Below, in pieces: positions 53,360 through 64,000 of a stretch of 64,000 nucleotides of DNA. Source of the DNA: Bacillota bacterium. GTDB taxonomy: Bacteria; Bacillota; Clostridia; Lachnospirales; Bianqueaceae. A program made the position numbers and the translations under genes. Where the stretch lies: positions 1 to 64,000 of the forward strand of contig JAFRZE010000054.1 of NCBI GenBank assembly GCA_017442735.1, read 5' to 3'. The notes under the pieces are model-generated. The model saw only the letters and a list, made by a program, of their open reading frames with translations. It had not been told where the DNA came from and did not search any database. How positions within the stretch are numbered: position 1 is the stretch's first letter; each line of letters opens with the position of its first letter.

Positions 53360-55255
53360 ATGAAATGTCAGTTTTGCGGTGGTGAGATCCCGGATACCGC
53401 TGTATTCTGTATTCACTGCGGTCAGAGACAGAATAAGCCCGCGTCTGAACCGGTAAAACCCGCGTTCGGTCTGGCCCCCGAGCCAGAACCGGCGAAGCCT
53501 GCGTATGACGCGTCACAGGTGATGGTTTCCCTGGGCGGTTCTCAGCCTGTGCCTGAAGCTCCCAAACCCAGCTTCCGGCCGGAGCCGAGCTTCCAGCCTG
53601 AGCCCGAACCGATTCCTGAGCCGGAACCCAGCTTCCAACCGAGTTTCCAACCCACGCAGATCCCTGAGCCGGAACCTGTGAAATCCAGCTTCCAGCCGGA
53701 GCCGAGCTTCCAGCCCCAGCAGAGTTTCCAGACCGGTAGTTTCCAGCCGGTACAGGAGCCTCAGAATAATTTCCAGACCGGATCTTTCCAACCGGTACAG
53801 GAACCTCAGAATAATTTCCAGACCGGATCCTTCCAGCCTCAGAATAGCTTCCAGCCCCAGCAGGGCAATTTCCAGCCCCAACAGGGCGGATTCCAGCCTC
53901 AGCAGGGCAATTTCCAGCCCCAGCAGGGCAGTTTCCAGCCCCAGCAGGGCGGTTATCAGCCCCAGCAGGGCGGTTATCAGCCCCAGAACAACTTCCAGCA
54001 GGGCGGATTCCAACCTGGTGGATATGAGCCTGAACAACCCAAGAAGAAAAAAGGCAAAGCCGGTCTGATCATCGGTATCATCGCCGCTCTTCTTGTCATC
54101 GCGGCTGTGGTCGTTCTGCTGGTCGTGAAACCGTTCAAGCCGAAGATGGTGGATGTGAACCTGAATGATTATGCTACCATGACCTTTGATGGCAACAGCG
54201 GAAAAGGCACCTATACGTTCTCCTTTGACAGTACGAAATTTGTAAAGGACAACGAAGACACCATCAAGTGGATGGACAAGAAGAACGCTACCGAGAATGC
54301 GCCTGCTTATGATTATTATCTGTATTGCGTCGATGGTACTTTCTCCGGCGGTGAGAACGGCAAGCTGAAGAATGGCGATACCGTCACTGTTACCTGGAAG
54401 ATCAATGAGGAATGGGCACCGTTCTTCAATGTCAATGTAGCCCAGCCGTCCAAGACATTCACGGTGGAAGGCCTTCCCGAGATCGAAGAGCTGGATCCGT
54501 TCAACGGCTTTGAGCTTTCCTTCGAGGGGACATCTCCCTATATCGATGCGTACGGCGACAGCTCCCGCGTACCGGAAGCTTTCCAGTATCTGCAGTACAA
54601 GATCGAGCCTCAGTATGACCTGTCCGAAGGTGACACTGTAACGGTCACCCTGCTTGACTGGAACGACCAGGATCCCACTGCGCAGCTTGAAGCTGAATTT
54701 GGCGTACATCCGATCACCACTTCCAAGACCTATACAGTTATCGCCGGCGGTACTTATGTGACTTCTGCCAGCCAGATCCCGCAGGAAGAGATGGACTATT
54801 TGATCGAGATCGGTCAGATGATCTACCAGCAGGACGAGGTCGATGCAGGCAACGTTCCTTCCAACGTGACTGTCAAGAACTTCGAGTACGCGGGTAATCT
54901 GTTCCTGACCCTGAAGGAGCCGGACTACTACAGCACCAACAACGCACTCTTCTGCCTGTATAAAGTCGACATCACGGTTACCTATAAGGTGAAAGAGAAA
55001 GATGGAGACAGCGAGAAGGAAGTAGAGAAAACGATGGATTACACGTATTACTACGATGTAGAATACGATGATCTGATCCTCCTCTCTGATGGTACGATCA
55101 ATATAGACGATCTGTGGTATTACACACCGTCCGATTCCTTCTCGACCGACAAAGGTGATGTAACGCTGTACGGCTACACTTCTGTGGAAACCTATCTGGC
55201 ATCCTTTGAGAACGCCGGACTGGACGCCTACACGATCGAAAACAATATCAAGTAA
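53360..55255 (+). CDS. Zinc-ribbon membrane protein with Phe-Gln-Pro repeat linker
   Basis: A 631-residue protein. An N-terminal zinc ribbon has Cys3, Cys6, Cys17 and Cys20 (QFCGGEIPDTAVFCIHCGQ). Residues about 65-225 are low-complexity repeats of SFQPEP, NFQTGSFQP and FQPQQG(N/G). A basic KKKKGK stretch and one helix (about 232-255) follow, and the last 375 residues are an extracytoplasmic beta-rich region with repeated KNGDTVTVTW / EGDTVTVTL-like strands. Cytosolic ribbon and outside domain are inferred from charge. Function unknown. It resembles the plan of the TIR protein at 60493. AAGGAGG precedes the ATG. Confidence 0.88.
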   Translation: MKCQFCGGEIPDTAVFCIHCGQRQNKPASEPVKPAFGLAPEPEPAKPAYDASQVMVSLGGSQPVPEAPKPSFRPEPSFQPEPEPIPEPEPSFQPSFQPTQIPEPEPVKSSFQPEPSFQPQQSFQTGSFQPVQEPQNNFQTGSFQPVQEPQNNFQTGSFQPQNSFQPQQGNFQPQQGGFQPQQGNFQPQQGSFQPQQGGYQPQQGGYQPQNNFQQGGFQPGGYEPEQPKKKKGKAGLIIGIIAALLVIAAVVVLLVVKPFKPKMVDVNLNDYATMTFDGNSGKGTYTFSFDSTKFVKDNEDTIKWMDKKNATENAPAYDYYLYCVDGTFSGGENGKLKNGDTVTVTWKINEEWAPFFNVNVAQPSKTFTVEGLPEIEELDPFNGFELSFEGTSPYIDAYGDSSRVPEAFQYLQYKIEPQYDLSEGDTVTVTLLDWNDQDPTAQLEAEFGVHPITTSKTYTVIAGGTYVTSASQIPQEEMDYLIEIGQMIYQQDEVDAGNVPSNVTVKNFEYAGNLFLTLKEPDYYSTNNALFCLYKVDITVTYKVKEKDGDSEKEVEKTMDYTYYYDVEYDDLILLSDGTINIDDLWYYTPSDSFSTDKGDVTLYGYTSVETYLASFENAGLDAYTIENNIK

Positions 55256-59858: not shown

Positions 59859-60506
59859 TTATCTCCGCAGGATGGGTTCCGCGACGGTCTTCTTGAAGAA
59901 GGCGATCAGCGGACCCATGAAGAAAGCGGCGATCACGGTGCCGATCCCAACGGTCGCGCCAAGCAGGCCGCCTATGATGACACAGATCACGTCCGTCCCG
60001 ATCCGGATATATTTAAACGGAACGGGGCGGCCTTTTATTTTGATCGCTTTTTTTTCATCGAGGATGATCGCGATCGCGTCGTAGGTCGAGACACCGAGAT
60101 CCGCCGTAAAGTAGAGCGCGGTGGAAAGACACATGATGACGACTCCCACGGCCAGTACGATGACCCGGAACCACAGGGCATGGTCGACGGACGGTCCGAG
60201 CCAGCGAACGAGGCAGGCTTCGGAGAACTCCGCCATATAGCCGAGCAGGAACAGGTTGATGAGCGTACCGAGGCTGATCTTTTTCCTGTCGACGATGAAG
60301 ATCACGATCAGCTGAACGATGTTCAGGAGCATATAGAAGGTGCCGAATCCGATTCCGGTCAGGCTCCAGGTGCCATGCGCGAACACCTGAAAGGGGTCGA
60401 GGCCGAGATCGGAATAGCTGAAGAGACCGACAGACAGACCGCAGATCGAAACGCCGAACACGGTCATGAGAATGCGTTTGACGAGTTGAGGATTATTTGT
60501 TTTCAT
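59859..60506 (-). CDS. YczE/YitT-like membrane protein
   Basis: A 215-residue (218 if the ATG at 60515 is used) membrane protein with about five to six helices, of the YczE/YyaS/YitT type. Signatures are SVGLFSYSDLGLDPFQVFAHG and the related second half TALYFTADLGVSTYDAIAIIL. It overlaps the end of the TIR gene and has no own ribosome site, so translation is coupled. Function unknown. Confidence 0.88.
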   Translation of the reverse strand: MKTNNPQLVKRILMTVFGVSICGLSVGLFSYSDLGLDPFQVFAHGTWSLTGIGFGTFYMLLNIVQLIVIFIVDRKKISLGTLINLFLLGYMAEFSEACLVRWLGPSVDHALWFRVIVLAVGVVIMCLSTALYFTADLGVSTYDAIAIILDEKKAIKIKGRPVPFKYIRIGTDVICVIIGGLLGATVGIGTVIAAFFMGPLIAFFKKTVAEPILRR

Positions 60507-62610
60507 AGAGGGCATAAGGGTAACTGTAGTCCAGTTTTAGTTGGTAAAGAAATGTATCATTCAGGAGGGCCTGCATCAATTCCTCCATCGTCAGGAGTTC
60601 GACATAGCTTTTTCCGAAGGTTTCCTGTACCGCCAGCACCTGATTGGTCGGGGTGCCGATAAGGCAGATCAGGCTATATGTACCTTTGTTGGCAAGGGAC
60701 GTTGTCAGAATGCCATCGTAATACTCCGCACTGATGATATACGCTCCATGCTCCGATCTCAGACTGTTGATGACAGAAGGCGTGTTGCCGTGCAGCAAGA
60801 GGGCACGATATGATCCCACAGGAAGAGAAGAGACATCTTCCAGCTGATTGAAGGAAAGATCCAGAATCGTATCGGAGGAGAAAGGTGTGATGGAGGCAAG
60901 AGGTGAAACATCCTTGAGCTGGTTGAAACTCAGTAAAACGGTCTTTAGGTTGCTGCATGGAGATAAGCCGGAAATATCCGTGAGACCACAACCTTCGGCA
61001 CGGATCGAAACCAGTTCGGTGAGGTTACGGCAAAAGTCAAGGTCAGTCAGGTTCAGACCGCTGAGCGACAGATTCTTGAGCAATGTGCATTGGCGAAGAG
61101 CAGTGACATCTTCCGCACCAATGCCGGTCCGGTCGATCTGAACGGTGGTCAATGTTTCATAGTTCTGATCAATGACAACACCAAAGGAAGCCAACTGAGG
61201 ATTGTCGGAAACATTCAGTACCTTCAGCTTGGTACAGTTCTTTAATAAATCAAGATCCTTCAAAGAACAGGAAGAAGCCTGGAAGGTTTCCAGTTTCAGG
61301 CACATGAGTTCTTCCGGAATGGTCTGAAGCGCACATCCGGAAACATTCAGACTGGTGAGTTTTTCCAGTGAGGCGATCGGAGTAAGATCAGTCACACCCG
61401 TCTGGGCGACTTCAAACTTGATCAGATTTGTCACTCCTGTAAGTGGAGAAAGATCCGTGACCTGAGTGCCAGAGATATACAGTTCCGTCAGGTTGGAAGC
61501 ATTCTGCAGGCAAGAAAGATCTTTGACTGATGTACCGGTTAGTGAAAGTCTGTTCAGTTCATCCAGCGTTATCAGGGAAAGATCACTGAAGCCACTTTGT
61601 CCGGTCAATATCAGTTCTCTCAGATTCAATCCTTCCAGAAAATGAAAATCATTGATGGCGGAACAATCAGAAAACTCGATGCTATAAACAGAAGAGGAGA
61701 AGGAGATCGAGGAAAAATCACAGGCGGAAAGATCACAGCCGTTAAGAGTCAGCGTTTTCATCTTTTTCATCTGGCTGATATTCTTCAGATCCTGCTGAGT
61801 CAGCGCCTTGTTGTAGAAGATGACATAAGGCGTGGAACGTGAAACCTTTTCTCCCCAGGATGCTTTGAAGCTGGCGTTCAGCAAGAACACAACGGCTAGA
61901 ACAGATAATACCACAACCGCTGCTGCGATCGATCCGAAGAGGATCAGATTCTTCTTGCCGGCCGGTTTCTTTTCCTTGGGCTGTTTGACCTTGGCGGGTT
62001 TGGCTTTGGACTGCGGCGTCTGTGGACCGGCTGGGTAGGCTGGAGCTGGTTGGGATGGAGCCGGCTGAACAGGGGCGGGCTGGGCCTGCACCTGGTGCGG
62101 CGTTAGCTGAGTTTGTTGCGGAACCGGCTGAACCGGTATCGGCTGCGGTTTGGGCTCTTCCTGCACTGGTTCTGGCGCGGGTCTCTGACATGGTCCGATG
62201 TCCGGACAAGTCAGGATCTTGCCGATGAAAGCTTCCCAAGTCGCATAATTATACCGAAGAATGCTTTGCTGGGCGGAAAGCTGCATTTCCATGCCAAGCG
62301 GCATTTCTGTCTTTTCCAGAAGGATGGAAAGAAAACGTTTTTCCTTCGACAGGGCAAAATTGATCTCGCGGCGGCAGTTCTGGGAGGCCATGGAGTTGGG
62401 CGTGACAAAGGCGATGACCATGTGGGCGGCATCCAGATGGCGCGCGATATCCTCCGGCCATTCACTGCCCGGTGCGATACCGTCATCATACCAGATCCGG
62501 TATCCCTTTTTGTCCAGCTCTTCCAGGACCTGAAAGACCCGTTCGCTGTCCCTGTGCGCGTAACTGATAAAGATATAAGGCTCTTTGCCTTCGTAAGCAA
62601 GCGGCTTCAT
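60493..62610 (-). CDS. TIR-transmembrane-LRR receptor-like protein
   Basis: A 705-residue protein with a plan like an animal Toll-like receptor but in reverse order. Residues about 10-135 are a TIR domain (YIFISYAHRDSERVF, BB-loop WYDDGIAPGSEWPEDI). The candidate NADase glutamate is Glu82 in SQNCRREINFA. A Pro/Gln-rich linker (about 141-205), a basic KKPAGKK stretch and one helix (221-244) follow. Residues about 255-640 are leucine-rich repeats (LTELYISGTQVTDLSPLTG-type, about 22 residues each). The basic stretch before the helix predicts the TIR inside and the repeats outside. GGAGG precedes the start, 12 bases after the DUF3160 gene. Signalling or immune function is a hypothesis. Confidence 0.85.
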   Translation of the reverse strand: MKPLAYEGKEPYIFISYAHRDSERVFQVLEELDKKGYRIWYDDGIAPGSEWPEDIARHLDAAHMVIAFVTPNSMASQNCRREINFALSKEKRFLSILLEKTEMPLGMEMQLSAQQSILRYNYATWEAFIGKILTCPDIGPCQRPAPEPVQEEPKPQPIPVQPVPQQTQLTPHQVQAQPAPVQPAPSQPAPAYPAGPQTPQSKAKPAKVKQPKEKKPAGKKNLILFGSIAAAVVVLSVLAVVFLLNASFKASWGEKVSRSTPYVIFYNKALTQQDLKNISQMKKMKTLTLNGCDLSACDFSSISFSSSVYSIEFSDCSAINDFHFLEGLNLRELILTGQSGFSDLSLITLDELNRLSLTGTSVKDLSCLQNASNLTELYISGTQVTDLSPLTGVTNLIKFEVAQTGVTDLTPIASLEKLTSLNVSGCALQTIPEELMCLKLETFQASSCSLKDLDLLKNCTKLKVLNVSDNPQLASFGVVIDQNYETLTTVQIDRTGIGAEDVTALRQCTLLKNLSLSGLNLTDLDFCRNLTELVSIRAEGCGLTDISGLSPCSNLKTVLLSFNQLKDVSPLASITPFSSDTILDLSFNQLEDVSSLPVGSYRALLLHGNTPSVINSLRSEHGAYIISAEYYDGILTTSLANKGTYSLICLIGTPTNQVLAVQETFGKSYVELLTMEELMQALLNDTFLYQLKLDYSYPYALYENK

Positions 62611-62622
62611 AGGAGACCTCCG

Positions 62623-64000
62623 TTATTCTCTGCGGTAATCCAGTGTCCAGGCGGGTTTATCCGGCCTTCCTTCCGTTTCCCGGTTGTAAGAGCCGTCCTC
62701 CATGGGCGAGATGCCCATGAGCTGGCGCCACGCGGTATCGGTCATGCGATCGGACAGAGGCTGTTCGAACTGATACCAGTTGTAGACGGTTCCGCTGCAG
62801 ATCTTGACGTCACCATCGACCAGGCAGGCGACGTAGATGACGCTGGGGTTGCCGGTCGCGACCTCCAGGCAGGATCCTTCCGGATTGGTCGCGATATCAA
62901 CGATCAGGGCTGCCGGGAACAGGTCGAGCAGGTTCGAAAGAGGCATATCCCCGAGCTCAGCAGCATCTTCCTTGATGGTCTCGTACCAGAAATACTGAAG
63001 ATCGGTACCGAAGGAACGGATGAGCTCGTATTCCTCGTCTGTGAGCGTTTCATTAATCAGTTCTTTTTCGGAAATGGTCATGAGCTGTTTCGCTAACTCA
63101 CTCAGACGAAGCAGATTGGCTTCATCTTCCGCGGAGAGCATGCCGAAGGATTTCAGACCGGTGGCGGTTTTCTCTGTCAGGACGGCCAGGCGGGAGAAGA
63201 TCTCGGGTTCCGGCTGGACATAGCCGCGGTCGTCGGCGGTCGGGATGTCGCCGCCGTCACCGCGTCCGCCCATGGGTTGTTTGGTATAGAGGACCGTATC
63301 GTGCTTGAGTTCAGTGAAACTGCCGGCAAAGGTCTCCAGATCTTTCCTTGCCCATTGCTCGGTCTGCATAAAGAACGGATAGCCGGCACCTTTTGTCTTC
63401 AGCAGCGGATTCAAGGTGTAAAGCCAGCTGGAATAGAGGCTGGAGTTCCATTGCGCGTCGCCGGCCGCCGTGATCTCATCGCGCAGCATCTGCATGTTTT
63501 CCAGATAACCCGGATATTTGAAGGTGCCTTGCGCTTCCAGCAGGGATAAGGCTGTATCGGAGCCCATGGCGGCTGCCGCGTCGAGCGTATCGGGCAGCAT
63601 GCGGCGTTCATTCGTTTCCGTTTCCTGCACTTTATTGTAGACCAGATTCTGGAAGATCGCCGCGTCCAGAGTAAAGCGCTGTCCCATAAAGCGGAAGCCG
63701 AGATTCTCAGCGAGCAGGTCGGTATCCGGATCCACGTAGGTGGGGACGGAGTTGACCTTGGGCGGTTCCAGATCTCTGGTCAGAGAATGGAAGATGCCCC
63801 AGCTGTGGGTTGCCCCAGGAAGAGATTCGACCGTGGTGTTCTCGCCATAAGCGGCATCGATGAGCGGTTTATATTCATAGTAACCGGCATCGTCGCTGGC
63901 GCCGGCAAAGAAGGATGTGACGGAATAGATGGATTCCCAGATAGGAAGCGTTTCAGCGTCCAAAGCCAGGGTCATGAGCAGAGCGCTTCTGTCCAGATCC
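62623..64000 (-). CDS. DUF3160 protein (N-terminus beyond window)
   Basis: At least 459 residues are visible; the frame is open to the right edge (the segment DLDRSALLMTLALDA precedes the first internal Met), so the gene is cut. The protein matches DUF3160: YEYKPLIDAAYG, the FMGQRFTLDAAIFQNLVY segment, RRMLPDTLDAAAAMGS, YPGYLENMQMLRDEI, WNSSLYSSWLYTLNPL and QWARKDLETFAGSFTELKHDTVLYTKQ. DUF3160 proteins are usually secreted. Function is unknown. It is the visible first gene of the operon with the TIR protein. Confidence 0.85.
   Translation of the reverse strand, partial: DLDRSALLMTLALDAETLPIWESIYSVTSFFAGASDDAGYYEYKPLIDAAYGENTTVESLPGATHSWGIFHSLTRDLEPPKVNSVPTYVDPDTDLLAENLGFRFMGQRFTLDAAIFQNLVYNKVQETETNERRMLPDTLDAAAAMGSDTALSLLEAQGTFKYPGYLENMQMLRDEITAAGDAQWNSSLYSSWLYTLNPLLKTKGAGYPFFMQTEQWARKDLETFAGSFTELKHDTVLYTKQPMGGRGDGGDIPTADDRGYVQPEPEIFSRLAVLTEKTATGLKSFGMLSAEDEANLLRLSELAKQLMTISEKELINETLTDEEYELIRSFGTDLQYFWYETIKEDAAELGDMPLSNLLDLFPAALIVDIATNPEGSCLEVATGNPSVIYVACLVDGDVKICSGTVYNWYQFEQPLSDRMTDTAWRQLMGISPMEDGSYNRETEGRPDKPAWTLDYRRE

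Follow-up and report, generated by a model that had tools for sequence, protein, structure and literature searches.

Receptors that join leucine-rich repeats (LRRs) to a TIR domain, and domains of the ryanodine receptor (RyR) type, are thought of as animal hallmarks, and the bacterial TIR proteins that have been characterised are mostly soluble or intracellular sensors. Here we describe a bacterial gene for a membrane protein with TIR and LRR parts, together with a strong genomic association between TIR genes and genes for a second membrane protein that has RCK- and RyR-type domains (RCK-RyR). The first gene lies on the minus strand at 60493-62610 of a 64,000-nucleotide stretch (the window; positions 1 to 64,000 of contig JAFRZE010000054.1) from a gut bacterium of the Bacillota family Bianqueaceae, whose assembly (GCA_017442735.1) has 83 contigs and is 88.8% complete. 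Its 705-residue product, the TIR-LRR protein, consists of a TIR domain, a linker, a single transmembrane (TM) helix and LRRs.

As in Toll-like receptors (TLRs), an LRR ectodomain, one membrane helix and a cytosolic TIR domain are combined in one protein, with the topology predicted here, and the TIRs of TLR1 and TLR2 ranked near the top of the sequence matches with known structures. However, the order is reversed. The TIR is N-terminal and predicted to lie inside, the LRRs are C-terminal and there is no signal peptide; moreover, the LRRs are of the SDS22/internalin type rather than the TLR type. To our knowledge, the animal TLR adaptor pathway is not known in bacteria. The Toll-like receptor plan by which a first-pass annotation of the window had described the protein therefore holds for its parts and their predicted sides of the membrane, but with the reversed domain order is an analogy only.

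Other described systems resemble this locus in part. In Thoeris, as apparently here, a TIR protein goes together with a partner that has a (here predicted) nucleotide-sensing domain, but the Thoeris TIR is soluble rather than a membrane receptor, and its partner is a SIR2-SLOG or Macro-TM ThsA, whereas our candidate receiver is the RCK-RyR membrane protein. Matches of the TIR-LRR protein to ThsB models were weak (PADLOC ThsB, 2.3e-5; NCBIfam ThcB4, 27 bits against a cut-off of 220; Pfam ThsB_TIR, 22.0 bits, barely over the cut-off of 21.2 and far below TIR_2), and no ThsA-type effector was found among the ten neighbouring proteins of the TIR-LRR gene. The TIR fold and catalytic-type Glu are shared with Cat1 and with bacterial and SARM1 TIR NADases, but the Trp of the WxxxE motif is Asn in this TIR subfamily. 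Class 1 internalins have the same SDS22-like LRR fold, and NCBIfam internalin models match, though far under their cut-offs (70 bits; cut-off 1050), but here the N-terminus holds the TIR and helix and no signal peptide was seen. Finally, RCK-RyR ends in a domain like that of RyDEP and the RyR R12 family (PF02026), with H-x-x-W, H and D, but fused to membrane RCK or K+ channel modules.

The open reading frame (ORF) of the TIR-LRR protein is well formed, with a GGAGG ribosome-binding site (62617-62621) ahead of its ATG; all features of this locus are on the minus strand. Residues 1-141 (62188-62610) contain the TIR domain (Pfam TIR_2 at residues 13-104, E 1.3e-20, 74.6 bits, cut-off 28), in which Glu82 (codon 62365-62367) lies within NCRREINFAL. 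A linker that is first Pro/Gln-rich and then Lys-rich (residues 142-222; 61945-62187) leads to a single membrane helix (residues 223-244; 61879-61944) that includes the sole strongly hydrophobic segment (best 19-mer 223-241, mean Kyte-Doolittle 2.82). Since more Lys and Arg residues precede the helix (six in 15 residues) than follow it (two in 15 residues), the positive side should face inward, predicting an N-in/C-out topology with the TIR inside the cell and the LRRs outside. The LRR ectodomain (residues 247-608; 60787-61872) matched LRR_4 in seven stretches (E 2.8e-26), and a C-terminal cap, also predicted to be extracellular (residues 609-705; 60496-60786), matched no family. AlphaFold2, using an 11-row alignment of homologues, gave a model of the 705-residue protein (mean predicted local distance difference test [pLDDT] 80) with a TIR fold, a disordered linker at about residues 149-227, a helix at 226-244 and, from residue 247, an LRR solenoid that in Foldseek was closest to Roco and internalin A (E about 1e-13 to InlA). 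These results confirm the architecture and predicted topology put forward in the first-pass annotation, down to the catalytic-type Glu and the Pro/Gln linker.

At least ten other species encode full-length proteins of the same plan (29-83% overall identity), which places the architecture far beyond chance. Every full-length homologue has a TIR, a linker, one helix and LRRs. They include proteins of the sister species G006 (83% identical) and of genomes G009 and G016, while one genome-collection scan gave L041, a further relative at 42%, and six more whose overall identity was 29-34% (L042-L046 and L049); their sources are mostly rumen Lachnospiraceae and Oscillospiraceae metagenome-assembled genomes (MAGs), with the isolate Lachnospiraceae AC2029 (L049) as well. 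The conservation of Glu82 that was predicted for close homologues proved to extend to all 17 TIR domains compared, those of relatives without LRRs included. In the comparison of the window species with G006, the TIR was the best-conserved part, with a nonsynonymous divergence (dN) of 0 and a synonymous divergence (dS) of 0.34, and the ectodomain was the least conserved (dN/dS of 0.19 for the LRRs and 0.23 for the cap). The TIR may be the fixed signalling part of the protein and the ectodomain the changing outer part. Many close TIR relatives combine the same TIR-linker-one-helix front with other ectodomains, such as Sel1 repeats (L057 and, by eye, L131), beta-propeller-like domains (L130, L136) or regions without a Pfam match (L050-L052, L055, L056). 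In one Clostridia MAG, four TIR-TM genes are in tandem (L059:248-7559), and similar clusters are present in L071, L073, L075, L077 and L081.

A candidate for the receiving end of such a signal is encoded beside some of these genes. In G009 and G016, TIR-LRR is followed directly, in the same orientation, by a gene for an RCK-RyR membrane protein of ~624 residues, and in G002 the RCK-RyR gene adjoins a TIR gene that has the linker and the start of the helix. RCK-RyR proteins start with helices, continue with RCK/TrkA-like domains (for the L090 homologue, TrkA_N at E 6.3e-6) and end in a RyR (R12)-like domain, whose profile matched a RyR1 repeat in the PDB (E 2.9e-6). When the long RCK-RyR protein was scanned as a whole with Pfam, no family was assigned (14.9 bits or no match to Pfam RyR; cut-off 27.4), and the RyR identity came from the profile search and from the short paralogues described below. 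Among 15 sequences, H522, W525 and H572 of RCK-RyR (EHxRW...H) were invariant and D602 nearly so. By motif order, these residues correspond to H75, W78, H100 and D117 of the phage protein RyDEP, which contact a 3'cADPR-derived ligand (PMC13232231). In the window's genome (G000), the RCK-RyR gene is at C45:55290-57143, beside a gene for a zinc-ribbon-TM protein.

The association of TIR genes with RCK-RyR was strong. RCK-RyR was found in 16 of 295 genomes of the order, and TIR genes were beside 11 of those 16. A class-level draw detected RCK-RyR in 25/391 genomes, three of them already known; five more genomes had a TIR gene near RCK-RyR, and many had none. Overall, 16 of 37 genomes had a TIR_2 gene no more than 6 kb from RCK-RyR, compared to 0.54 expected from the TIR_2 counts per genome (Poisson P 1.4e-18), and the linked genomes fall in 11 of 21 genera. 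When the three genomes that prompted the linkage idea (G002, G009 and G016) were left out, 13/34 genomes were linked. As a control, 12 stretches were taken from elsewhere in these genomes, on other contigs, and contained no TIR gene. Co-occurrence gave a similar picture. RCK-RyR was present in 12 of the 21 genomes with TIR-TM genes, compared to 25/391 at class level (P 7e-9), and in 3 of 7 TIR-LRR genomes outside the window's family (P 0.009). Within the family, 6/19 genomes have it, and the five that carry this TIR type are all among them (P 5e-4).

The linkage is not universal, as the class-wide sample has many unlinked loci, notably in the vertical lineage f30. In this family (L168-L175), RCK-RyR occupies a fixed non-TIR neighbourhood beside a MIHAFxMHGxNLVLD-type gene, which suggests that RCK-RyR can also serve another input.

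In nine genomes, a second gene beside RCK-RyR encodes a protein of ~500-530 residues with the K+ channel filter TVGYGD and a C-terminal RyR domain (L223:7857-9416, L224:6260-7858, L225:7840-9354, L226:7146-8678, L227:7617-9146, L228:8737-10266, L229:4072-5610, L232:7946-9484 and L127:7149-8705). The three short paralogues that were scanned matched Ion_trans_2 (48-52 bits, cut-off 22.5), and two of the three exceeded the Pfam RyR cut-off of 27.4 (29.0, 33.0 and 24.9 bits). These TVGYGD-RyR proteins are predicted to be a ligand-gated channel family and deserve separate study. Two further arrangements were observed. In one Bacteroidia genome, outside the class, the gene for a 1467-residue TIR-LRR(BspA)-TPR protein overlaps that of a TrkA_N/RyR-type membrane protein (L090:7515-13969), and in G668 (L234:5780-12229) a 705-residue membrane protein with a weak Castor/Pollux match, RCK-RyR and a TIR-TM protein are encoded in a row.

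The model that best accommodates these data is a surface-to-channel signalling module consisting of a TIR-LRR receptor, an ADP-ribose (ADPR)-type messenger and an RCK-RyR receiver, to which we give a probability of roughly 0.4. The LRR ectodomain would sense, or cluster on, a ligand outside the cell and, through the single helix that crosses the membrane, the cytosolic TIRs would be brought together and activated. The TIR would most likely turn NAD+ into the messenger. The probable receiver would be the RCK-RyR membrane protein, whose C-terminal RyR (R12) domain may bind this messenger and thereby control the passage of ions; in some relatives, the flux could pass through the paired RyR-domain K+ channel. 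Such a module might serve in defence or in the response to envelope or host signals.

Several points weigh against this model. In the window's genome, the TIR-LRR and RCK-RyR genes are on different contigs and no short K+ channel paralogue was found; nor was RCK-RyR detected in 4 of the 7 TIR-LRR genomes outside the family. Many RCK-RyR genes, such as those of f30, have no TIR gene nearby, and the adjacency and co-occurrence tests take no account of genome kinship. The AlphaFold2 model of RCK-RyR, made from a 3-row alignment, was too poor to use (pLDDT 42), and the binding of ADPR compounds by RyR domains has been published for phage proteins, not for the RCK-RyR family. Lastly, the WxxxE Trp position is Asn78 in our protein (codon 62377-62379) and Tyr in one homologue, while Trp is present in the aligned Cat1, TLR1/2 and 7uxr TIRs. 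Catalysis by our protein is therefore uncertain.

The same substitution favours the main rival, in which the TIR serves for assembly and not as an enzyme, much as TLR TIRs do: binding by the LRRs would cluster the protein and recruit other TIR or scaffold proteins of the cell without a nucleotide messenger. Although the top PDB profile match was Cat1, a CRISPR-associated TIR (E 8.8e-9), TLR2 and other TIRs came next, and the known-structure matches include TLR1, TLR2 and MyD88. The presence of Glu82 does not decide the matter. TLR1 aligns with its own Glu on Glu82, and this Glu is found in >70% of all TIR domains, frequently in TLR1/2/6/10 and commonly in TIRs for which no activity has been reported, and its occurrence does not follow activity (PMC7075850). 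We therefore rejected Glu82, which TLR1 and TLR2 share, as proof of an NADase; of the first-pass suggestion that it marks one, the residue itself stands, present and invariant, but it is non-diagnostic. Several other TIR proteins are encoded in the same genome, and a TIR dN of 0 is compatible with an interaction surface. However, the adjacency of TIR genes to genes for RyR-domain proteins points to an ADPR-type ligand, and we consider a purely scaffolding TIR somewhat unlikely.

A special case of the signalling module, compatible with it, would be an anti-phage abortive-infection receptor at the cell surface, similar to Thoeris and with RCK-RyR as effector. Conflict with phages is known to involve both messengers made by TIRs and counter-defence by RyR domains (PMC13232231), and the patchy distribution of the TIR-LRR gene within its genus and the weak PADLOC ThsB matches are consistent with such a role. 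In contrast, none of the ten neighbouring proteins is encoded by a defence gene, and TIR-LRR homologues sit among housekeeping genes, for example smpB, era, recA and nusA (named by eye). This more specific role is thus unlikely. Two related readings were rejected: residence in a defence island, as the only PADLOC matches of the ten neighbours were ATPase-type models on an ordinary ABC transporter, and carriage by plasmids or phages, as no full-length TIR-LRR match was found on plasmids or in viral contigs, which also counts against the anti-phage receptor.

The protein could instead be a surface LRR adhesin or colonisation factor, with a TIR that merely anchors or localises it and has no sensing role. 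Its LRR fold is closest to internalins and Roco, and other surface-type proteins, DUF3160 and CapA, are encoded in its operon. Yet the TIR is the best-conserved part and the ectodomain the least, many relatives retain the TIR-TM front while exchanging the ectodomain, and an anchor that does not signal would have no use for an invariant active-site helix in its TIR. We regard this explanation as improbable.

The operon itself, as the first-pass annotation had noted, is real. Its order in the contig is DUF3160-CapA-DUF3160-TIR-YczE, with the genes ahead of the nearer DUF3160 gene lying beyond the window. Upstream of the TIR gene, a zinc-ribbon-TM-DUF3160 protein is encoded at 62623-63999 and on to contig position 65151, with 12 bp between its stop codon and the TIR start codon. 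Downstream, the ORF of a YczE-like 5-TM protein (59859-60515) overlaps the 3' end of the TIR gene by 23 bp from the listed ATG, or by 14 bp from the likelier ATG at 60506, which matches the sister species. A conserved linkage of DUF3160, TIR-TM-LRR and YczE genes, for which the annotation had suggested a search, was seen only in that 83%-identical species, G006. In the family, YczE is present in 16/19 genomes and DUF3160 in 8/19, with or without the TIR gene, and the congener G003 has a closely spaced DUF3160-CapA-YczE operon without it (L268:2772-7661). Rather than being one of a set of partners, the TIR gene thus more probably joined an operon that already existed, or was lost from one. The G003 operon offers a natural comparison for either event. 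That the DUF3160 and YczE/YitT-like proteins are functional partners of TIR-LRR is therefore largely refuted and very improbable, since their shared operon, with its short gap and overlap, is confined to the window genome and its sister species, and neither is encoded beside any other TIR-LRR gene. Elsewhere in the window, the gene at 53360-55255 encodes a zinc ribbon, a long Pro/Gln repeat linker, one helix and a large extracellular part, a layout like that of the TIR and DUF3160 proteins, as though the front module on the cytosolic side could be swapped.

A literature search returned no account of the TIR-RCK-RyR linkage or of a bacterial TIR-TM-LRR family; a 2025 preprint on the systematic discovery of TIR-based systems (doi 10.64898/2025.12.03.692087) and comparative-genomics papers by Burroughs and Aravind may overlap in part with our results. 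In a broader and more tentative form, our proposal is that bacteria may possess a receptor-to-channel pathway in which an LRR-TIR receptor makes an ADP-ribose messenger for an RyR-gated RCK/K+-channel protein, and in which TIR-TM would be a shared module whose LRR, Sel1, propeller-like and other ectodomains sense different external signals. If this is true, two questions come within reach of experiment, namely whether TIR chemistry relays surface signals in bacteria and which ligands the RyR domains of prokaryotes recognise, and the long-debated link between ADP-ribose messengers and the ryanodine receptor would gain a bacterial setting.
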